From Halorubrum cibi (GTDB lineage Archaea > Halobacteriota > Halobacteria > Halobacteriales > Haloferacaceae), in the NCBI RefSeq assembly GCF_900182635.1, contig NZ_FXTD01000002.1, forward strand, positions 62,001 through 126,000: a stretch of 64,000 bases of DNA. The letters run 5' to 3'. Positions 11,931-19,151 of the stretch are shown here, piece by piece (the first letter of the stretch is position 1; each line of letters begins with the position of its first letter). The notes beneath the pieces are model-generated. The model saw only the letters and a program-made list of their open reading frames with translations, searched no databases and was not told where the DNA came from. The translations under genes were made by a program, and so were the position numbers.

Positions 11931-14006
11931 CTACGCCGAGTAGCCCGCGAGTTCCGCGAGCAGGTCCGCGATCCCGTCGTCGTCGAGTTCGGCCGCGAGC
12001 GACGCCACCGCCTCACGGTCGGCCCGGTCGGTCGCCGCGCGGACGACGACCCGCTGATCGCCGAGCGGGACGAACACGCAGCCGAGTCGTTCGGCCGTCT
12101 CACGCAGACCGAGGCCGGCGTCGGCCTCGCCCGCGAGCACCCGCCGGACAGGGCTCTCGAACGCCCGGAGCGTCAGCCCGTAGCCGTCGATGCGGTCGGT
12201 CAGGTCGCCCCGGGAGTCCCCGCGCTCCGCCGCGAGGTCCTCGAGCGCGTCGTCGAGACCTCGACGCAGTCCCGTCCCGGTCGGACGGTTGACGAACCGG
12301 AGATCGCGGTCGACGAGGTCCGCGAGCCCCTCGACGCCCTCGGGATTCCCCTCGGGTACGACGATCCCCCACTCGCGGTCCCACTCGCCGAGCGCGACGC
12401 TGTCGACGTCGCGGTCGGTCGGTCCCGCGGTCACGGCGACGTCCGGGACGCCGTCGCGGAGCCGGCGGTATCCCTCGCGTGAGCCGACCGGGAGGTATCG
12501 CGGGTTCTCGAGCCGGTCGAGGAGGCGGTTCACCGCGGGATCGTCCTCGCCGACGCCGAGCAGGGTCGGCGGGCGGACGTCCGGCGAGAACAACTGGACC
12601 GTCACGGACTCGCCTTCCTCCAGGTACTCGGTGTCCGGGTCGACGGCGACGACGCCGTCGGCCTCGACGAGGCTCGTCGTCGCGCCGGATCCCTTGTCGA
12701 CGGGGTAGACGAGCGGCCGGTCGGGATCGCCCGCCGGCCCGTCCGCGGCCGCGTCGTCCGCCGATCCACCATCGGCCGCGCCGTCCGCCGACTCACCATC
12801 GGCCGCGCTGTCGTCTCCCAGATCGAGCAGGCCCACGGGCATCAGCCGGAGCCGCCCCTCGCCGTAGCGCTCGCGCAGAGCCATCCGCCCCTCGACGGTC
12901 GCGGTCCGCGGCTCCGGGAGTCCTGCGGCCTCACGGACCGCCGGCGCGACGAACGTCCGGAAGATCGTCAGCGCGGAGACGGGATAGCCGGGGAGCCCGA
13001 CGTAGGCCGACTCGCCGCCGTCCTCGCGGTCGAGCCGCCCGATAAGCATGGGCTTTCCCGGCTTGACGGCGACGCCGTGGAGCAGCAGGTCGCCGCGCTC
13101 CTCGATCACGCGGTAGATCACGTCGACCGCGCTCGCGGAGGTCGACCCCGACGAGAGGACCAAGTCGCACTCGTCGGCTGCCTCACGGAGCAGCCGCTCC
13201 ATCTCCGCGTAGTCGTCGCCGGCGTGCGGGTAGAGGACGGGCTCGCCGCCCGCCTCGGAGACCCCCGCCGCGATCGTCGTCGAGTTCACGTCGTAGATCT
13301 CCCCGCGGGAGGGGTCGAGGTCGTCGCCGGGGCGGACCAGTTCGTCGCCCGTCGAGACGATCCCGACCGTGGGCCGGCCGCGGACCGGGACCTCGTCGAC
13401 CCCGAGCGCGGAGAGCAGCCCGATCTCGCGGGGCGTCAATCGCGTTCCGGGGCCGAGCGCGCGGGCCCCGGCGGCGATGTCCGCGCCCGCGGCCATCACG
13501 TGGTCGCCCGGCGCGACCGACGTGCGGAACGCGATCCGGGCCGGTCGATCGTCGCCAGCTCCATCGTCGCCAGCTCCATCGTCGTCGCTCCCGGCGTTTC
13601 CGCCGGTTTCGCTCCCCTCGGCCGGCCGCTCGTCCGTGCGCTCGACCATCACCACCGCGTCCGCGCCGTCCGGCATCACCGCCCCGGTCGACACCTCCGC
13701 GCAGGTGCCGGGCTCGACGGTCACCTCGGGGGTCGCCCCCGCGTGGACCGCGCCGACGAGGTCGAGCTCGACCGGGTCGGCCTCGTCGGCCCCGAACGTG
13801 TCGCGGGCGCGGACCGCGTACCCGTCCATCGACGCGCGGTTGAACCCCGGCACGTCGATCGCGGCGTCGACGCGTTCGGCGAGCACCCGACCGCGGGCCT
13901 CGTTCAGGGGAACGGACTCCGGATCGGGCGAGAGGTCCAGCGACGCGATCGCTTCGCGGGCGGCCTCCGGCTCGGCCAGGTCGCGGAACTCCTTGCGCTC
14001 CGTCAT
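11931..14006 (-). CDS. moeA: MoeA-type molybdopterin molybdotransferase fused to a periplasmic-binding-like domain
   Basis: A 691-residue fusion. Residues 1 to about 400 are MoeA, the enzyme that inserts molybdate into adenylylated molybdopterin: PGFNRASMDGYAVRARDTFG, then VGIVSTGDELVRPGDDL and SSGSTSASAVDVIYRV are hallmark blocks. After a linker of Asp/Ala/Gly repeats (about residues 400-430), residues 475-690 form a PBP-like/LysR-substrate domain (RYLPVGSREGYRRLRDG, RPTGTGLRRGLDD, GEADAGLGLRETAERLG) known from archaeal MoeA paralogues and thought to bind molybdate, tungstate or a related ligand. Its start overlaps the stop of the next upstream moeA by ATGA, so translation is probably coupled. 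Confidence 0.9.
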   Translation of the reverse strand: MTERKEFRDLAEPEAAREAIASLDLSPDPESVPLNEARGRVLAERVDAAIDVPGFNRASMDGYAVRARDTFGADEADPVELDLVGAVHAGATPEVTVEPGTCAEVSTGAVMPDGADAVVMVERTDERPAEGSETGGNAGSDDDGAGDDGAGDDRPARIAFRTSVAPGDHVMAAGADIAAGARALGPGTRLTPREIGLLSALGVDEVPVRGRPTVGIVSTGDELVRPGDDLDPSRGEIYDVNSTTIAAGVSEAGGEPVLYPHAGDDYAEMERLLREAADECDLVLSSGSTSASAVDVIYRVIEERGDLLLHGVAVKPGKPMLIGRLDREDGGESAYVGLPGYPVSALTIFRTFVAPAVREAAGLPEPRTATVEGRMALRERYGEGRLRLMPVGLLDLGDDSAADGESADGAADGGSADDAAADGPAGDPDRPLVYPVDKGSGATTSLVEADGVVAVDPDTEYLEEGESVTVQLFSPDVRPPTLLGVGEDDPAVNRLLDRLENPRYLPVGSREGYRRLRDGVPDVAVTAGPTDRDVDSVALGEWDREWGIVVPEGNPEGVEGLADLVDRDLRFVNRPTGTGLRRGLDDALEDLAAERGDSRGDLTDRIDGYGLTLRAFESPVRRVLAGEADAGLGLRETAERLGCVFVPLGDQRVVVRAATDRADREAVASLAAELDDDGIADLLAELAGYSA

Positions 14007-15286
14007 TCCGTCACCTCCCAGAGTTCGACGTCGACGACGTCGCCGGCGTCGAGGCCCTCGCGCGGCTCCGGCACGACGACCCAGCCGTCCGCGAGCGCGA
14101 CGCTCGAGAGGACGCCCGACCCGCTCGCGCGGGTGGGCGTCGCGACGTACGGAGGGTCGTCCGGATCGTGGTGGGGGTCGTCCTCGCCGTTCTCGCCGTC
14201 TCCGCTGTCCGGTCCCTCCCGCGACAGCTTCACCCGGGCGAACGTCCGCGTGCCGGGTTCGCTCGCCACCTTCCGGTCGAGTCGCGCGCGCCGGGTCGGG
14301 AACGGGTCGGGGGTCGTCCCGCCCACCCGCTTCTGGACGGGCCGGAGGAACTGGACCGCGTTGACGATACAGGCCACGGGGTAGCCCGGAAGCGAGACCA
14401 CCGGCGTCCCCTCGACCCGGCCGAGACACACCGGGTGGCCGGGTTTGAGCGCGACGCCGTGGACGAGCACCTCGCCGAGGCCGTCGACGACCTCCGGGAG
14501 GAGGTCGCGCTCGCCGACGGAGGAGCCGCCGGTGGTGACGACGACGTCGGCGTCGAGGTCCGATTCGATGGCGGCCGCGAGCGCGTCCTCGTCGTCGGTG
14601 ACGACCTCTCGGTATCGCGGCTCGCCGCCCCAGCGCTCGACCAGTCTGGAGACCGTCAGCCCGTTCGTCTCGATCACCTCGCCGGGGTCCGGATCGGACT
14701 GAACCAGCTCTTCGCCGGTCGGGATCACGGCGACGGTGGGACGCTCGCGGACGGCGACCTCCTCGAGGCCGACCGACTTACACAGCCCCAGGTCGGACGG
14801 GCGAAGCGTCTCGCCCGCCTCGTAGAGCCGCTGTCCGTCCGCCACGTCCTCGCCGGCCGCGCCGACGTTCTCGCCGCTGGCGACCGCGTCGAACGTCTCG
14901 ACCTCGTCGCCGAGCGTCTCGACGTGCTCGATCATCACGACCGCGTCCGCGCCCTCGGGGAGCGCGCTCCCCGTGTGGACGCGGACCGCCTCGCCGGGCG
15001 CGACCGACCCGTCCTCGCGGTCCCGCTCCCGCAGGACCGCGGGCGACCGGTCCGACGCGCCGAAGGTGTCCTCGGCACGGACCGCGTACCCGTCCATCGC
15101 CGCCCGGTCGTACCCCGGCACCGGCGCGGGCGCGTCGATCGGCTCCGCGAGGACGCGACCGTCGGCGTCCGCGAGGGGGACCGTCTCGGTCCGGCCGTGG
15201 GCATCGGCGGCGTCGAGCAGCGTCGCGCGCGCCTCCGCGACGCGGGTCCGCCGTTTGAACCCGGCCTCGTGTCTGTCGTGGCTCAT
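14003..15286 (-). CDS. moeA: MoeA-type molybdopterin molybdotransferase, stand-alone
   Basis: A 427-residue MoeA paralogue without the binding-protein domain. PGYDRAAMDGYAVRAEDTFG, VAVIPTGEELVQ, TTGGSSVGERDLLPEVV and the exit GLPGYP-type loop VVSLPGYPVACIVNAV are present. Archaea commonly keep two MoeA copies, one plain and one fused, which is proposed to separate Mo and W insertion; that assignment cannot be made here. ATG 15286 is used because upstream codons in frame are unconserved. It overlaps the fused moeA by ATGA (14003-14006) and follows the PHP gene by about 95 nt. Confidence 0.9.
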   Translation of the reverse strand: MSHDRHEAGFKRRTRVAEARATLLDAADAHGRTETVPLADADGRVLAEPIDAPAPVPGYDRAAMDGYAVRAEDTFGASDRSPAVLRERDREDGSVAPGEAVRVHTGSALPEGADAVVMIEHVETLGDEVETFDAVASGENVGAAGEDVADGQRLYEAGETLRPSDLGLCKSVGLEEVAVRERPTVAVIPTGEELVQSDPDPGEVIETNGLTVSRLVERWGGEPRYREVVTDDEDALAAAIESDLDADVVVTTGGSSVGERDLLPEVVDGLGEVLVHGVALKPGHPVCLGRVEGTPVVSLPGYPVACIVNAVQFLRPVQKRVGGTTPDPFPTRRARLDRKVASEPGTRTFARVKLSREGPDSGDGENGEDDPHHDPDDPPYVATPTRASGSGVLSSVALADGWVVVPEPREGLDAGDVVDVELWEVTE

Positions 15287-15380
15287 GGCCGTCCGTTTCG
15301 ACTCCGCGGGCAAAAACCCCGCTTCCCCGGCGACGTCGCCGGCTCAGAACCGCGCCTGTCGCCCGCCCGGAGCGCCGGAC

Positions 15381-16358: not shown

Positions 16359-17291
16359 CTAGTCGAACAGCCCGCGGATCCGGTCGACGACCGACGACTC
16401 CTCGGCCTCGGCCTGCTCCTCCGCGCGCTGCTGCTCGCGAAGCTCGCGCAGCGCGGCGGCCTGATCGTCGGTCCCCTCGCCGCTCGCGGTCTTCGTCTCG
16501 CCGCCCTGGAGCCCCTTGAGCTGTGAGACCGCGTCGTCGACGGTGCCAGAGGTCGTCCGGGTCTCGGTCGCGGACCCGGCGAGCGCGTCGCTATCGATCT
16601 CGGCGTCGTCGACGACGGTGGTGTTCAGCTCCAGCCGGCGGCCCGTCGGACGCTCGACGCCGCCCCAGGTGAGCTCGGCGTCGTCGAGCTCACGCTCGAT
16701 GTCGGCACGGACCTGCTCGTCGGTGACGGTCTCGGCTCCCGACTCCGGATCGCCGCCCGACCCGACGTCGCCGGCCGCGCCGCCGGCCGCCGCTCCGCCG
16801 GCAGCCGCCGCGCCCGACGCCTGCTCGACGCGGTGGGCGACGAGCGCCGCCCCGGTCGCGCCGATGACGGCGACGAGCCCGACGCTGTACAGCGCCACGA
16901 CCTGCGCGCTGTAGTCCGGCGGTTCGGCGACGTTCCAGTCGTGCGGGTACACGCGGACGAACCACCCGACTGCGGCGAGACAGATCGCCGCCCCGCCGCT
17001 TCCGAGATAGAGCATGCGGCGGTCCACCGGAAGGAGGACGACGACGCCGAGGAGCAGTCCCGGTAGGCCGAGCGCGGCGGCGACCGCGGCTACCTGTCTG
17101 ACCGAGTAGGTCGAGAGGGTGTTCGCCGGCAACGTCGCGCTGTAGAGGAACACGGCGATCCCGACGATCCCCAGACCGAGTCCCACGAAGAAGAGACCGA
17201 ACCCGGCGTACACGTCGACGGCTCGGTCCGGGTCGCCGATGTACCGTCGGTAGTAGCCGAAGAGCGGGTTCGTCTCGCTCTGGTCGCTCAT
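16359..17291 (-). CDS. cdpA: Four-TM membrane protein with acidic tail, probable CdpA-type cell-division protein
   Basis: A 310-residue membrane protein. After GYYRRYIGDPDRAVDVYAG four hydrophobic segments occur at about 29-51, 66-88, 94-117 and 129-152, then a long acidic, Ala/Gly-rich cytoplasmic tail that ends in SSVVDRIRGLFD. I recall this N-terminal layout as DUF7139, renamed for CdpA, which anchors FtsZ and PRC-barrel proteins CdpB in Haloferax; the match is from memory. Residues 242-261 in the tail (TETRTTSGTVDDAVSQLKGL) reappear in a second nearby protein (18849-19151). ATG 17291 begins just before the conserved block. Confidence 0.65.
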   Translation of the reverse strand: MSDQSETNPLFGYYRRYIGDPDRAVDVYAGFGLFFVGLGLGIVGIAVFLYSATLPANTLSTYSVRQVAAVAAALGLPGLLLGVVVLLPVDRRMLYLGSGGAAICLAAVGWFVRVYPHDWNVAEPPDYSAQVVALYSVGLVAVIGATGAALVAHRVEQASGAAAAGGAAAGGAAGDVGSGGDPESGAETVTDEQVRADIERELDDAELTWGGVERPTGRRLELNTTVVDDAEIDSDALAGSATETRTTSGTVDDAVSQLKGLQGGETKTASGEGTDDQAAALRELREQQRAEEQAEAEESSVVDRIRGLFD

Positions 17292-17404
17292 GTCTCGTCG
17301 TTTCCGCCGAGTCTAATGACTGTTGCCCCCGCGAGTCGATCCTGCCGGGAGCCCGCGAGTCGATCCCGCCGGGAGCCCGCGATCGGTCCCCTCGCGTTCC
17401 GTAC

Positions 17405-17635
17405 TCAGCTCGCCGGCTCCATCTCCTCCCAGCCGGCCGCGTCGCCGCGCAGCAGCGACCCGACGATCCAGACGACCTCGTCGACGCCGCGGTCCGCCTC
17501 GAGGTCACCGCGATCGACGCTCTCCACGAACCGATCCAGGTCGTCGAGGTCGATCCGCCCGGAAGTCACCGCGCCCGTGATCGTGTCCGTGTCGCTTTCC
17601 AGCACGCCCAGAAGATCGGCCCCGTTCGCTCCCAT
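17405..17635 (-). CDS. Small acidic protein of unknown function
   Basis: A 76-residue acidic, leucine-rich protein (DLLGVLESDTDTITGAV, LDDLDRFVESVDRGDLEA, EVVWIVGSLLRGD) that looks like a small three-helix bundle. No catalytic or metal motif is seen. The ATG at 17635 lies about 27 nt from a strong palindromic TATA region, which supports it being expressed. It is in the same orientation as the CdpA-like gene, 113 nt upstream of it. Confidence 0.6.
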   Translation of the reverse strand: MGANGADLLGVLESDTDTITGAVTSGRIDLDDLDRFVESVDRGDLEADRGVDEVVWIVGSLLRGDAAGWEEMEPAS

Positions 17636-17659
17636 TTCAAATGATACTACAGAACGAGT

Positions 17660-17669
17660 TAATATATTA
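17660..17669. promoter_or_regulatory. Palindromic TATA region, probably bidirectional
   Basis: TAATATATTA is a perfect 10-nt palindrome, 25-34 nt ahead of the minus-strand gene start at 17635. Because it reads the same on both strands it could also serve the plus-strand operon that begins at 17775, with a leader of about 80 nt. Confidence 0.5.
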
Positions 17670-17774
17670 GTATCGGTTCATACAGCCAAGATGTTCGTGA
17701 GGGATCCCCACGAGAACGCTCCCCGTGACCCTTGTGTTTTTCACGGCCGGCGTCCACGGCTCACCCGAGAGACC

Positions 17775-18071
17775 GTGTCGACCGAGTGCCCGCGCTGTGG
17801 ATCCGCGCTGACGACGTTCACGCTCGGCGGGGCCGAGGCCGTCGGCTGTGACGCCTGCGGCTACGCCGGCGTCGAGGTCGACCACTCCGGCGAACCCCGC
17901 CTCGTCGAGAGCTGGGAGGAGGCGCTCGAACGGTTCGGCAGGGAGATCGAGGACGGCGGGGAATCGGAACGGGAGAACGCGGACGAGATGGAAGCGGAGC
18001 GGGAGAACGCGGACGATGAAGACGCAGACGCGACGGAAGGGGACCGCGAGAAGACGGAGCGAGAGGAGTAA
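17775..18071 (+). CDS. Zinc-ribbon protein with acidic repeat tail
   Basis: A 98-residue protein starting at GTG 17775 (VSTECPRCGSALTTF). Two CxxC pairs, CPRC near residue 5 and CDACGY near residue 26, form a zinc ribbon of the zf-TFIIB type often found in small haloarchaeal regulators. The rest is a highly charged helix; ERENADEMEA and ERENADDEDA are two copies of a ten-residue unit encoded by a 30-nt period (17971 and 18001). The next gene starts 3 nt after the stop, so it heads an operon. Confidence 0.78.
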   Translation: MSTECPRCGSALTTFTLGGAEAVGCDACGYAGVEVDHSGEPRLVESWEEALERFGREIEDGGESERENADEMEAERENADDEDADATEGDREKTEREE

Positions 18072-18074
18072 CGC

Positions 18075-18845
18075 ATGCCACCGATCGAGATCACCGACGA
18101 CCACCGAGAACGCATCGAGCGCCTGCGCGAGGAACTGGCCGACCGACACGCCGGGCCGTACGCGACGGTCGGCACCGAGGAGGTGCTCGGGTACCTGCTC
18201 GACCTCGCCGACGCCGTCGACGACCCGGACCGTTCGGCCGACGCCGACCGCCTGGCCGGCCGGGGGGACGGCTCGAACGCGACCGGCGACGGCGACGGGG
18301 ATCGCTCCCCGTTCGACCGCGAGGCGGCGCGCGCGGCGCTCGAAGAACGCAACCGGCGACACGGAGACCCCGAGGACGCGGACCGCTCGGACTTGTACTC
18401 CATCGCCGCCGAGTTCGACGTCTCGGGCCGCAGCGACATGACCAAGGGTGAACTCGTCGAGGCGATCCTCGACGCGGCCGCCGAGCTGGCGGTCGATCCC
18501 TTCGCCCGCGTCGACGTTGCGGTCCCCGACGCCGCGGACGGAAGCGGCGACGACGAGACGGAGTCGGCGGCGACCGATCCGGCGGACGACGAGAGCGCGG
18601 ACGACGACGGGGCGGGCCCGGAGGGTGCCGGCGACGACACGGCGGGCGCCGCCGACAACGAGGCCAACGATGCCGACGGCGGTGCCGGGCAACTGAACGC
18701 GATGATGAGCCTGCTCGACACTCACGACGACAAGTGGCGGAAGGGCGACGGCGACGCGCGCTACGAGGTCGAACTGCCTGACGGAAGCGTCGAGACGGCC
18801 CGCACCAAGGACGACGTGCGGGCGCTGTTGTTCCGGAACTACTGA
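18075..18845 (+). CDS. Acidic protein with Rho-N/SAP-like helical motif
   Basis: A 256-residue acidic protein of unknown function. Residues about 102-132 (DLYSIAAEFDVSGRSDMTKG plus LVEAIL) look like the Rho N-terminal or SAP-type helix-extended loop-helix that can bind nucleic acid. The region 150-205 is a disordered Asp/Gly/Ala run. The conserved C-terminus has LNAMMSLLDTHDDKWRKGDG and ARYEVELPDGSVETARTK, ending in RALLFRNY, a small beta domain. It sits 3 nt from genes on each side in an operon with the zinc-ribbon and CdpA-motif proteins. Confidence 0.72.
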   Translation: MPPIEITDDHRERIERLREELADRHAGPYATVGTEEVLGYLLDLADAVDDPDRSADADRLAGRGDGSNATGDGDGDRSPFDREAARAALEERNRRHGDPEDADRSDLYSIAAEFDVSGRSDMTKGELVEAILDAAAELAVDPFARVDVAVPDAADGSGDDETESAATDPADDESADDDGAGPEGAGDDTAGAADNEANDADGGAGQLNAMMSLLDTHDDKWRKGDGDARYEVELPDGSVETARTKDDVRALLFRNY

Positions 18846-18848
18846 TCC

Positions 18849-19151
18849 ATGGGACTGATCACCACGCTCCGCAGATGGATCGGCGGCCTCCTCGGTTCGG
18901 AGCCGGAGGAACCGGACGACGCGACGGACGAGGAGACGGCGGAGTCGGAGCCGGAGGAACCGGAGGACGACCGGCTCGACCCCGATGCCGTGACCGAGAC
19001 CCGGTCGACCGCGACCGACGACGCGGTCGACAAGCTCCGGTCGGTTCGGGAGGAGGCGGCCACGGAGGAGGCGACCGGCGACCGAGAATCGGTTGATCCC
19101 GCCCTCGGCGACGACGATCAAACCGACTCCGCCGGCGACGGGAAGCGTTAG
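18849..19151 (+). CDS. Small protein with amphipathic N-terminus and CdpA-tail-like motif
   Basis: A 100-residue protein. Residues 1-16 (MGLITTLRRWIGGLLG) would form an amphipathic membrane-binding helix with Leu/Ile/Trp on one face and Arg on the other. A long acidic linker follows. Residues 49-64 (TETRSTATDDAVDKLR) match the tail of the CdpA-like protein encoded nearby on the other strand. The end is acidic and probably disordered. The design, a membrane helix plus a short linear motif, suggests an adaptor, but this is inference. It is 3 nt after the preceding gene. Confidence 0.68.
   Translation: MGLITTLRRWIGGLLGSEPEEPDDATDEETAESEPEEPEDDRLDPDAVTETRSTATDDAVDKLRSVREEAATEEATGDRESVDPALGDDDQTDSAGDGKR

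Follow-up and report, generated by a model that had tools for sequence, protein, structure and literature searches.

The window, by which we mean the whole stretch of 64,000 nucleotides of the Halorubrum cibi genome analysed here, encodes two proteins that, judged from their sequences, gene neighbourhoods and species distribution, are candidate membrane anchors of volactin, an archaeal actin. One is a predicted four-helix membrane protein of a volactin-linked DUF7139 subgroup, which was defined in the present analysis and is termed DUF7139-V, and the other is a small protein of 100 amino acids. A sequence-only reading of this DNA had proposed that both carry the same motif, TETRTTSGTVDDAVSQLKGL in DUF7139-V (residues 242 to 261) and TETRSTATDDAVDKLR in the small protein (residues 49 to 64). 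Genome-wide profiles and shuffles bear this out, and we are highly confident that the motif is real and common to both proteins.

The two open reading frames are separated by 1557 bp, and the small-protein gene starts 3 nt past the stop of a Rho_N/SAP-like gene. The reading frames and both peptides lie exactly where they had been placed. The features of the neighbourhood are:

16359 to 17291, minus strand: DUF7139-V, previously described as a CdpA-like protein; open reading frame of 310 amino acids with four predicted membrane helices and a cytoplasmic tail
16626 to 16712, minus strand: conserved tail segment VRADIERELDDAELTWGGVERPTGRRLEL of DUF7139-V, residues 194 to 222; WGGVE is invariant across genera in the alignments
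16500 to 16568, minus strand: box A, TETRTTSGTVDDAVSQLKGLQGG, DUF7139-V residues 242 to 264; first motif copy, conserved across the order
16425 to 16499, minus strand: box B, ETKTASGEGTDDQAAALRELREQQR, DUF7139-V residues 265 to 289; second motif copy, conserved; AlphaFold2 helix 274 to 309
16362 to 16397, minus strand: C-terminal helix SSVVDRIRGLFD of DUF7139-V, a possible membrane-associating end with a conserved pattern
17778 to 18071, plus strand: zinc-ribbon protein of the same neighbourhood; conserved part, start not fixed; match to PF13453 barely above the cut-off
18075 to 18845, plus strand: Rho_N/SAP-like protein of 256 amino acids, upstream of the small protein; PF07498, E 1.9e-7
18849 to 19151, plus strand: small protein, open reading frame of 100 amino acids; N-terminal helix, acidic linker, one motif copy, acidic tail
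18849 to 18896, plus strand: N-terminal helix MGLITTLRRWIGGLLG of the small protein, predicted to be membrane-targeting; R8 and W10 invariant; helix in the AlphaFold2 model
18975 to 19055, plus strand: shared motif LDPDAVTETRSTATDDAVDKLRSVREE in the small protein, supported by dN/dS; helix 59 to 75 in the AlphaFold2 model

Elsewhere in the window, a tandem pair of genes on the minus strand (11931 to 15313) was named by eye as molybdopterin-biosynthesis (MoeA-like) genes.

Membership of DUF7139-V in PF23600 is based on a Pfam match that exceeds the curated cut-off across the membrane domain (E 6.7e-46, 156 bits against a cut-off of 30, positions 2 to 149 of 150). Its AlphaFold2 model is poor (mean pLDDT 56) and places helices at residues 24 to 52, 59 to 86, 91 to 114 and 128 to 168 at low confidence; neither a PDB sequence search nor a Foldseek search with this poor model gave a credible match. 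Alignments of orthologues across the order reveal that the WGGVE segment, box A, box B and the C-terminal helix are all kept, and the hydrophobic moment of the C-terminal helix (0.54) is not significant against shuffles. For the small protein, neither Pfam (at E <= 1) nor NCBIfam gave a match. Its AlphaFold2 model contains only helices 3 to 16 and 59 to 75, with the rest disordered, and the box helix reaches a mean pLDDT of 85 over residues 61 to 70. The suggestion that both proteins have membrane-binding parts is upheld insofar as membrane helices are predicted in both, but these are predictions only, and the N-terminal helix of the small protein, while conserved, does not exceed composition-preserving shuffles in hydrophobic moment.

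The relationship between the two motifs was assessed in both directions. A profile of the small-protein motif region alone, built from nine sequences, was run on all six frames of the 3.18-Mb genome. It recovered the small protein itself (E 5e-17), followed by box B (E 0.0022) and box A (E 0.0036), and the next match (E 0.031) is unrelated. The tail of DUF7139-V carries two motif copies in place of the one that had been described. In reverse, a box A profile made exclusively from genera other than Halorubrum returned the small protein as the best genome match after box A (E 0.069), with a chance match to histidyl-tRNA synthetase close behind (E 0.093); as reciprocal best matches in the genome, box A and the small protein provide an argument that is weak if taken alone. 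A profile of box B alone did not find the small protein in the window's own genome. When the Halorubrum small-protein motif profile was compared with the tails of 30 DUF7139-V orthologues, with E-values scaled to 3000 proteins, box A of an orthologue from a different genus (L035) matched at E 4e-6 and box A of the window at E 0.004, and none of 100 composition-matched shuffles of either tail reached the score. With a joint motif profile, every match at E < 1e-4 in 115 genomes of the order fell within the two protein kinds, an exclusivity that arises partly by construction because both kinds stand in the profile. The motif was conceivably one that recurs at random in many unrelated acidic proteins; neither the genome nor the 115 genomes presented such a picture, and by these searches the motif is nearly exclusive to DUF7139-V and the small protein. 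Outside Halorubrum, the agreement between box A and the small-protein motif is largely limited to T-x-x-R and the pattern of the helix.

Relatives of the small protein were detected in 34 of 392 genomes (E < 1e-12), mostly of Halorubrum and otherwise of five other genera of three families; eight Halorubrum genomes in this survey gave no match. Positions without variation include the N-terminal M, R8 and W10 as well as the stretch LDP..TE.R...D.V..L, in which T49 and D57 each show a single exception. In a comparison of eleven Halorubrum sequences, dN/dS was 0.18 for residues 43 to 66 (from LDP to the box), 0.53 for the N-terminal helix (residues 1 to 13) and 0.97 for both linkers, the last value being a guide only because the linker alignment is uncertain. 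By this measure, conservation of the small protein centres on the motif, to which strong purifying selection is confined. In g10 genomes (L081, L084 and L086), the place of the small protein after the Rho_N/SAP gene is occupied by another protein, in which an N-terminal helix and a zinc ribbon are combined with a TDDAADRLRDLRDE-like end. In the g25 genomes G023 and G054 (L005 and L006), the small-protein gene stands alone, away from DUF7139-V and volactin, and is flanked by aroA-type and Xaa-Pro-peptidase-type genes.

In the other genera compared, DUF7139-V is generally followed immediately on its own strand by an actin homologue, which is volactin by Pfam (PF25216, E 6e-137). Since this neighbour is volactin, volactin was searched for together with DUF7139-V across the 115 genomes of the order. 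Both occur in 53 genomes, DUF7139-V alone in none, volactin alone in one (a partial frame) and neither in 61, counts in which related genomes are not independent of each other. In 44 of the 53 genomes, the two genes are immediate neighbours on one strand, with DUF7139-V preceding volactin. Part of the co-occurrence may reflect linkage, because adjacent genes can be lost in a single deletion. Presence of the pair also varies inside two genera (g23: present in G020 and G091, absent from G083; g18: present in G029, G050 and G081, absent from G040 and G065), and the pattern is therefore not that of one old split. At E <= 1e-3, the joint motif profile finds boxes in 49 of the 54 volactin-positive genomes and in none of the 61 volactin-negative ones; matches in the former are expected because the profile holds both proteins, and the information lies in their absence elsewhere. 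The Rho_N/SAP-like protein is found in 40 of the 115 genomes, all of them volactin-positive. Most volactin-positive genera lack the small protein, which can therefore be no more than an accessory part.

Halorientalis regularis (L136) and archaeon A07HR60 (L138) have, on one strand, genes for the Rho_N/SAP protein, the small protein, the DUF7139 protein and volactin; the same order, with DUF7139-V, is seen in G051, and a zinc-ribbon gene of like kind adjoins DUF7139-V and volactin in other genera. On plasmid pNG700 of Haloarcula marismortui and on a Natrinema plasmid, DUF7139 is followed by volactin. The pNG700 segment (L191, 5007 to 8445) comprises DUF7139, volactin (E 5.7e-134), zinc-ribbon-type and SAP-type genes, the last two being assigned from the matching layout in L146, and all four are annotated as hypothetical proteins. 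In PLSDB, relatives of DUF7139-V are annotated only as 'hypothetical protein' or 'permease'. In the window's own genome, volactin is encoded alone and apart from the usual cluster (G000:C5:93919-94950, L224). It is unlinked in all seven Halorubrum genomes compared, and the small protein and DUF7139-V remain together there.

The genome contains three DUF7139 proteins. One of the paralogues is near-universal, being present in 96 of the 115 genomes (G000:C1:101873-102847 in the window's genome, L223). It has a Cys-rich C-terminus (CGNCAEFDYV...YCGHYDEVMEAMEPCEQW) and is flanked by a DUF373-like gene and acetate-CoA-ligase-type genes, named by eye; in the 115 genomes it has no box match by the joint motif profile and is only loosely associated with volactin. 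The third protein (G000:C4:71814-73538, L235) is 574 amino acids long, with several repeats of the WRWRLRHRNGNVIADSGEGYAS type following. FtsZ, sought by its signature near two of the DUF7139 paralogues and in the window, was not found at these places, and gene neighbourhood points to neither DUF7139-V nor the near-universal paralogue as CdpA.

Because one linear motif occurs in two carriers with predicted membrane parts, a common partner is likely, and the motif probably serves such a partner. That this partner is volactin, by putative binding, we regard as an even chance. The interpretation in the sequence-only reading stands in its shared motif, its predicted membrane parts and its likely common partner, but the FtsZ-associated or PRC-barrel partner that it offered as an example finds no support here, since the motif and DUF7139-V follow volactin rather than the division machinery (49 of 54 against 0 of 61 genomes; 44 of 53 adjacent). 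The explanation that we consider best overall, and that we would expect to hold in about one of two such cases, is that the two proteins are membrane tethers of the volactin cluster that share a helical box. The window would then contain a remnant of an ancestral cluster consisting of zinc ribbon, Rho_N/SAP, small protein, DUF7139-V and volactin, from which the volactin gene itself would have come to lie elsewhere in Halorubrum genomes. DUF7139-V would be integral to the membrane and display two short helical boxes on its disordered cytoplasmic tail. The small protein would be a peripheral membrane protein, with its N-terminal helix lying on the membrane and its flexible acidic linker presenting one box of the DUF7139-V kind. 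All these boxes may recognise one and the same partner in the cytoplasm, most probably volactin filaments or the tips of these. In this way, both proteins would tether volactin to the membrane or regulate it there, and the small protein would supplement the integral two-box sites of DUF7139-V with peripheral ones of a single box. According to published imaging, volactin filaments contact the membrane only at their tips, regardless of the division site, and the factors that bind volactin were called unknown (PMC10869688); the papers found on volactin describe no membrane anchor and name no binding factor. We tentatively propose that DUF7139-V anchors the filament tips via two helical actin-binding boxes and that the same box lets the small protein act as a further, peripherally bound anchor or regulator; this specific version we consider somewhat less probable than its opposite.

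A different role would follow if DUF7139-V were CdpA and its motif bound FtsZ1, FtsZ2, SepF or the PRC-barrel protein CdpB, with the small protein joining the mid-cell ring. Haloferax volcanii possesses a DUF7139 protein. HVO_0739 is presumably CdpA. The HVO_0739 product is a predicted membrane protein that is strongly reduced upon cdrS repression, and its mRNA is monocistronic with a length of about 1052 nt (PMC8406309), which would fit DUF7139-V and the near-universal paralogue equally. CdpA has been named as an H. volcanii division protein (PMC12186497), and an N-terminal helix as in SepF (PMC8187382) could bring the small protein to mid-cell. HVO_0739 and volactin (HVO_2015) have widely separated locus numbers; this hints that DUF7139-V is not CdpA, but it is no proof because Halorubrum also has DUF7139-V and volactin unlinked. 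FtsZ and SepF are general among FtsZ-dividing archaea (PMC7617429), whereas 61 of the 115 genomes lack DUF7139-V and strong box matches; moreover, the presence of DUF7139-V tracks volactin instead, whose filaments assemble without reference to the division site (PMC10869688). We consider a division role unlikely, and the identity of CdpA leaves the motif and the volactin link unaffected.

The boxes could also pair with each other, the helix of the small protein acting on box A or box B to modulate or cluster DUF7139-V without any third partner. The adjacency of the two genes in Halorubrum and Halorientalis, the modelled helical box of the small protein with its spaced hydrophobic pattern and the two tandem boxes already present in DUF7139-V are compatible with this idea, but it explains neither the two boxes in genera without the small protein nor the tie to volactin, and we judge it rather improbable. 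That the partner is the Rho_N/SAP-like protein, joining the membrane to the nucleoid, agrees with the position of its gene directly 5' of the small-protein gene and with its restriction to volactin-positive genomes (40 of 54); the 14 volactin-positive genomes without a detectable Rho_N/SAP protein, 13 of which have DUF7139-V, make this hardly credible. The resemblance might even be due to chance or composition, if haloarchaeal tails, being acidic and abundant in T, D, E, R and A, had drifted towards similar sequences, or one tail might derive from the other without shared function. The motif is short and the single-genome E-values are just 0.002 to 0.07. Against this very doubtful origin stand the reciprocal top matches across the whole genome between genes of one neighbourhood, the E-value of 4e-6 in another genus (L035), the failure of shuffles to reproduce the match and the strong purifying selection confined to the motif.

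In H. volcanii, disk formation is under the control of volactin (PMC10869688), which also has a part in tissue-like multicellularity (PMC7617734). If DUF7139-V and the small protein act as tethers, they would constitute a membrane-tether system for an archaeal actin that is encoded with that actin. DUF7139-V is a direct candidate for the anchor, as it is found where volactin is, usually adjoining it, and its conserved peptide recurs in the small protein. Should DUF7139-V prove to be CdpA, an archaeal actin would be tied to the division machinery.

Comparison with known systems places the two proteins as follows. DUF7139-V has the same membrane domain as other DUF7139 (PF23600) proteins, possibly including H. 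volcanii CdpA, but it differs from the near-universal paralogue in having boxes A and B and in following volactin; the volactin-linked subgroup is marked by co-occurrence with volactin, by adjacency to it as a rule, with Halorubrum itself as an unlinked exception, and by boxes A and B, both of which the window's protein carries. Volactin (PF25216), the H. volcanii actin, is the neighbour and co-occurring partner of DUF7139-V but is itself the filament protein. SepF, the FtsZ2 membrane anchor of haloarchaea, uses an N-terminal membrane-targeting helix to present a binding part to a cytoskeletal polymer (PMC8187382). The small protein may resemble it in an N-terminal helix that is predicted and conserved, with a moment not above shuffles; in contrast to SepF, it lacks the SepF core domain, with no Pfam match at E <= 1 and no strands in the AlphaFold2 model.
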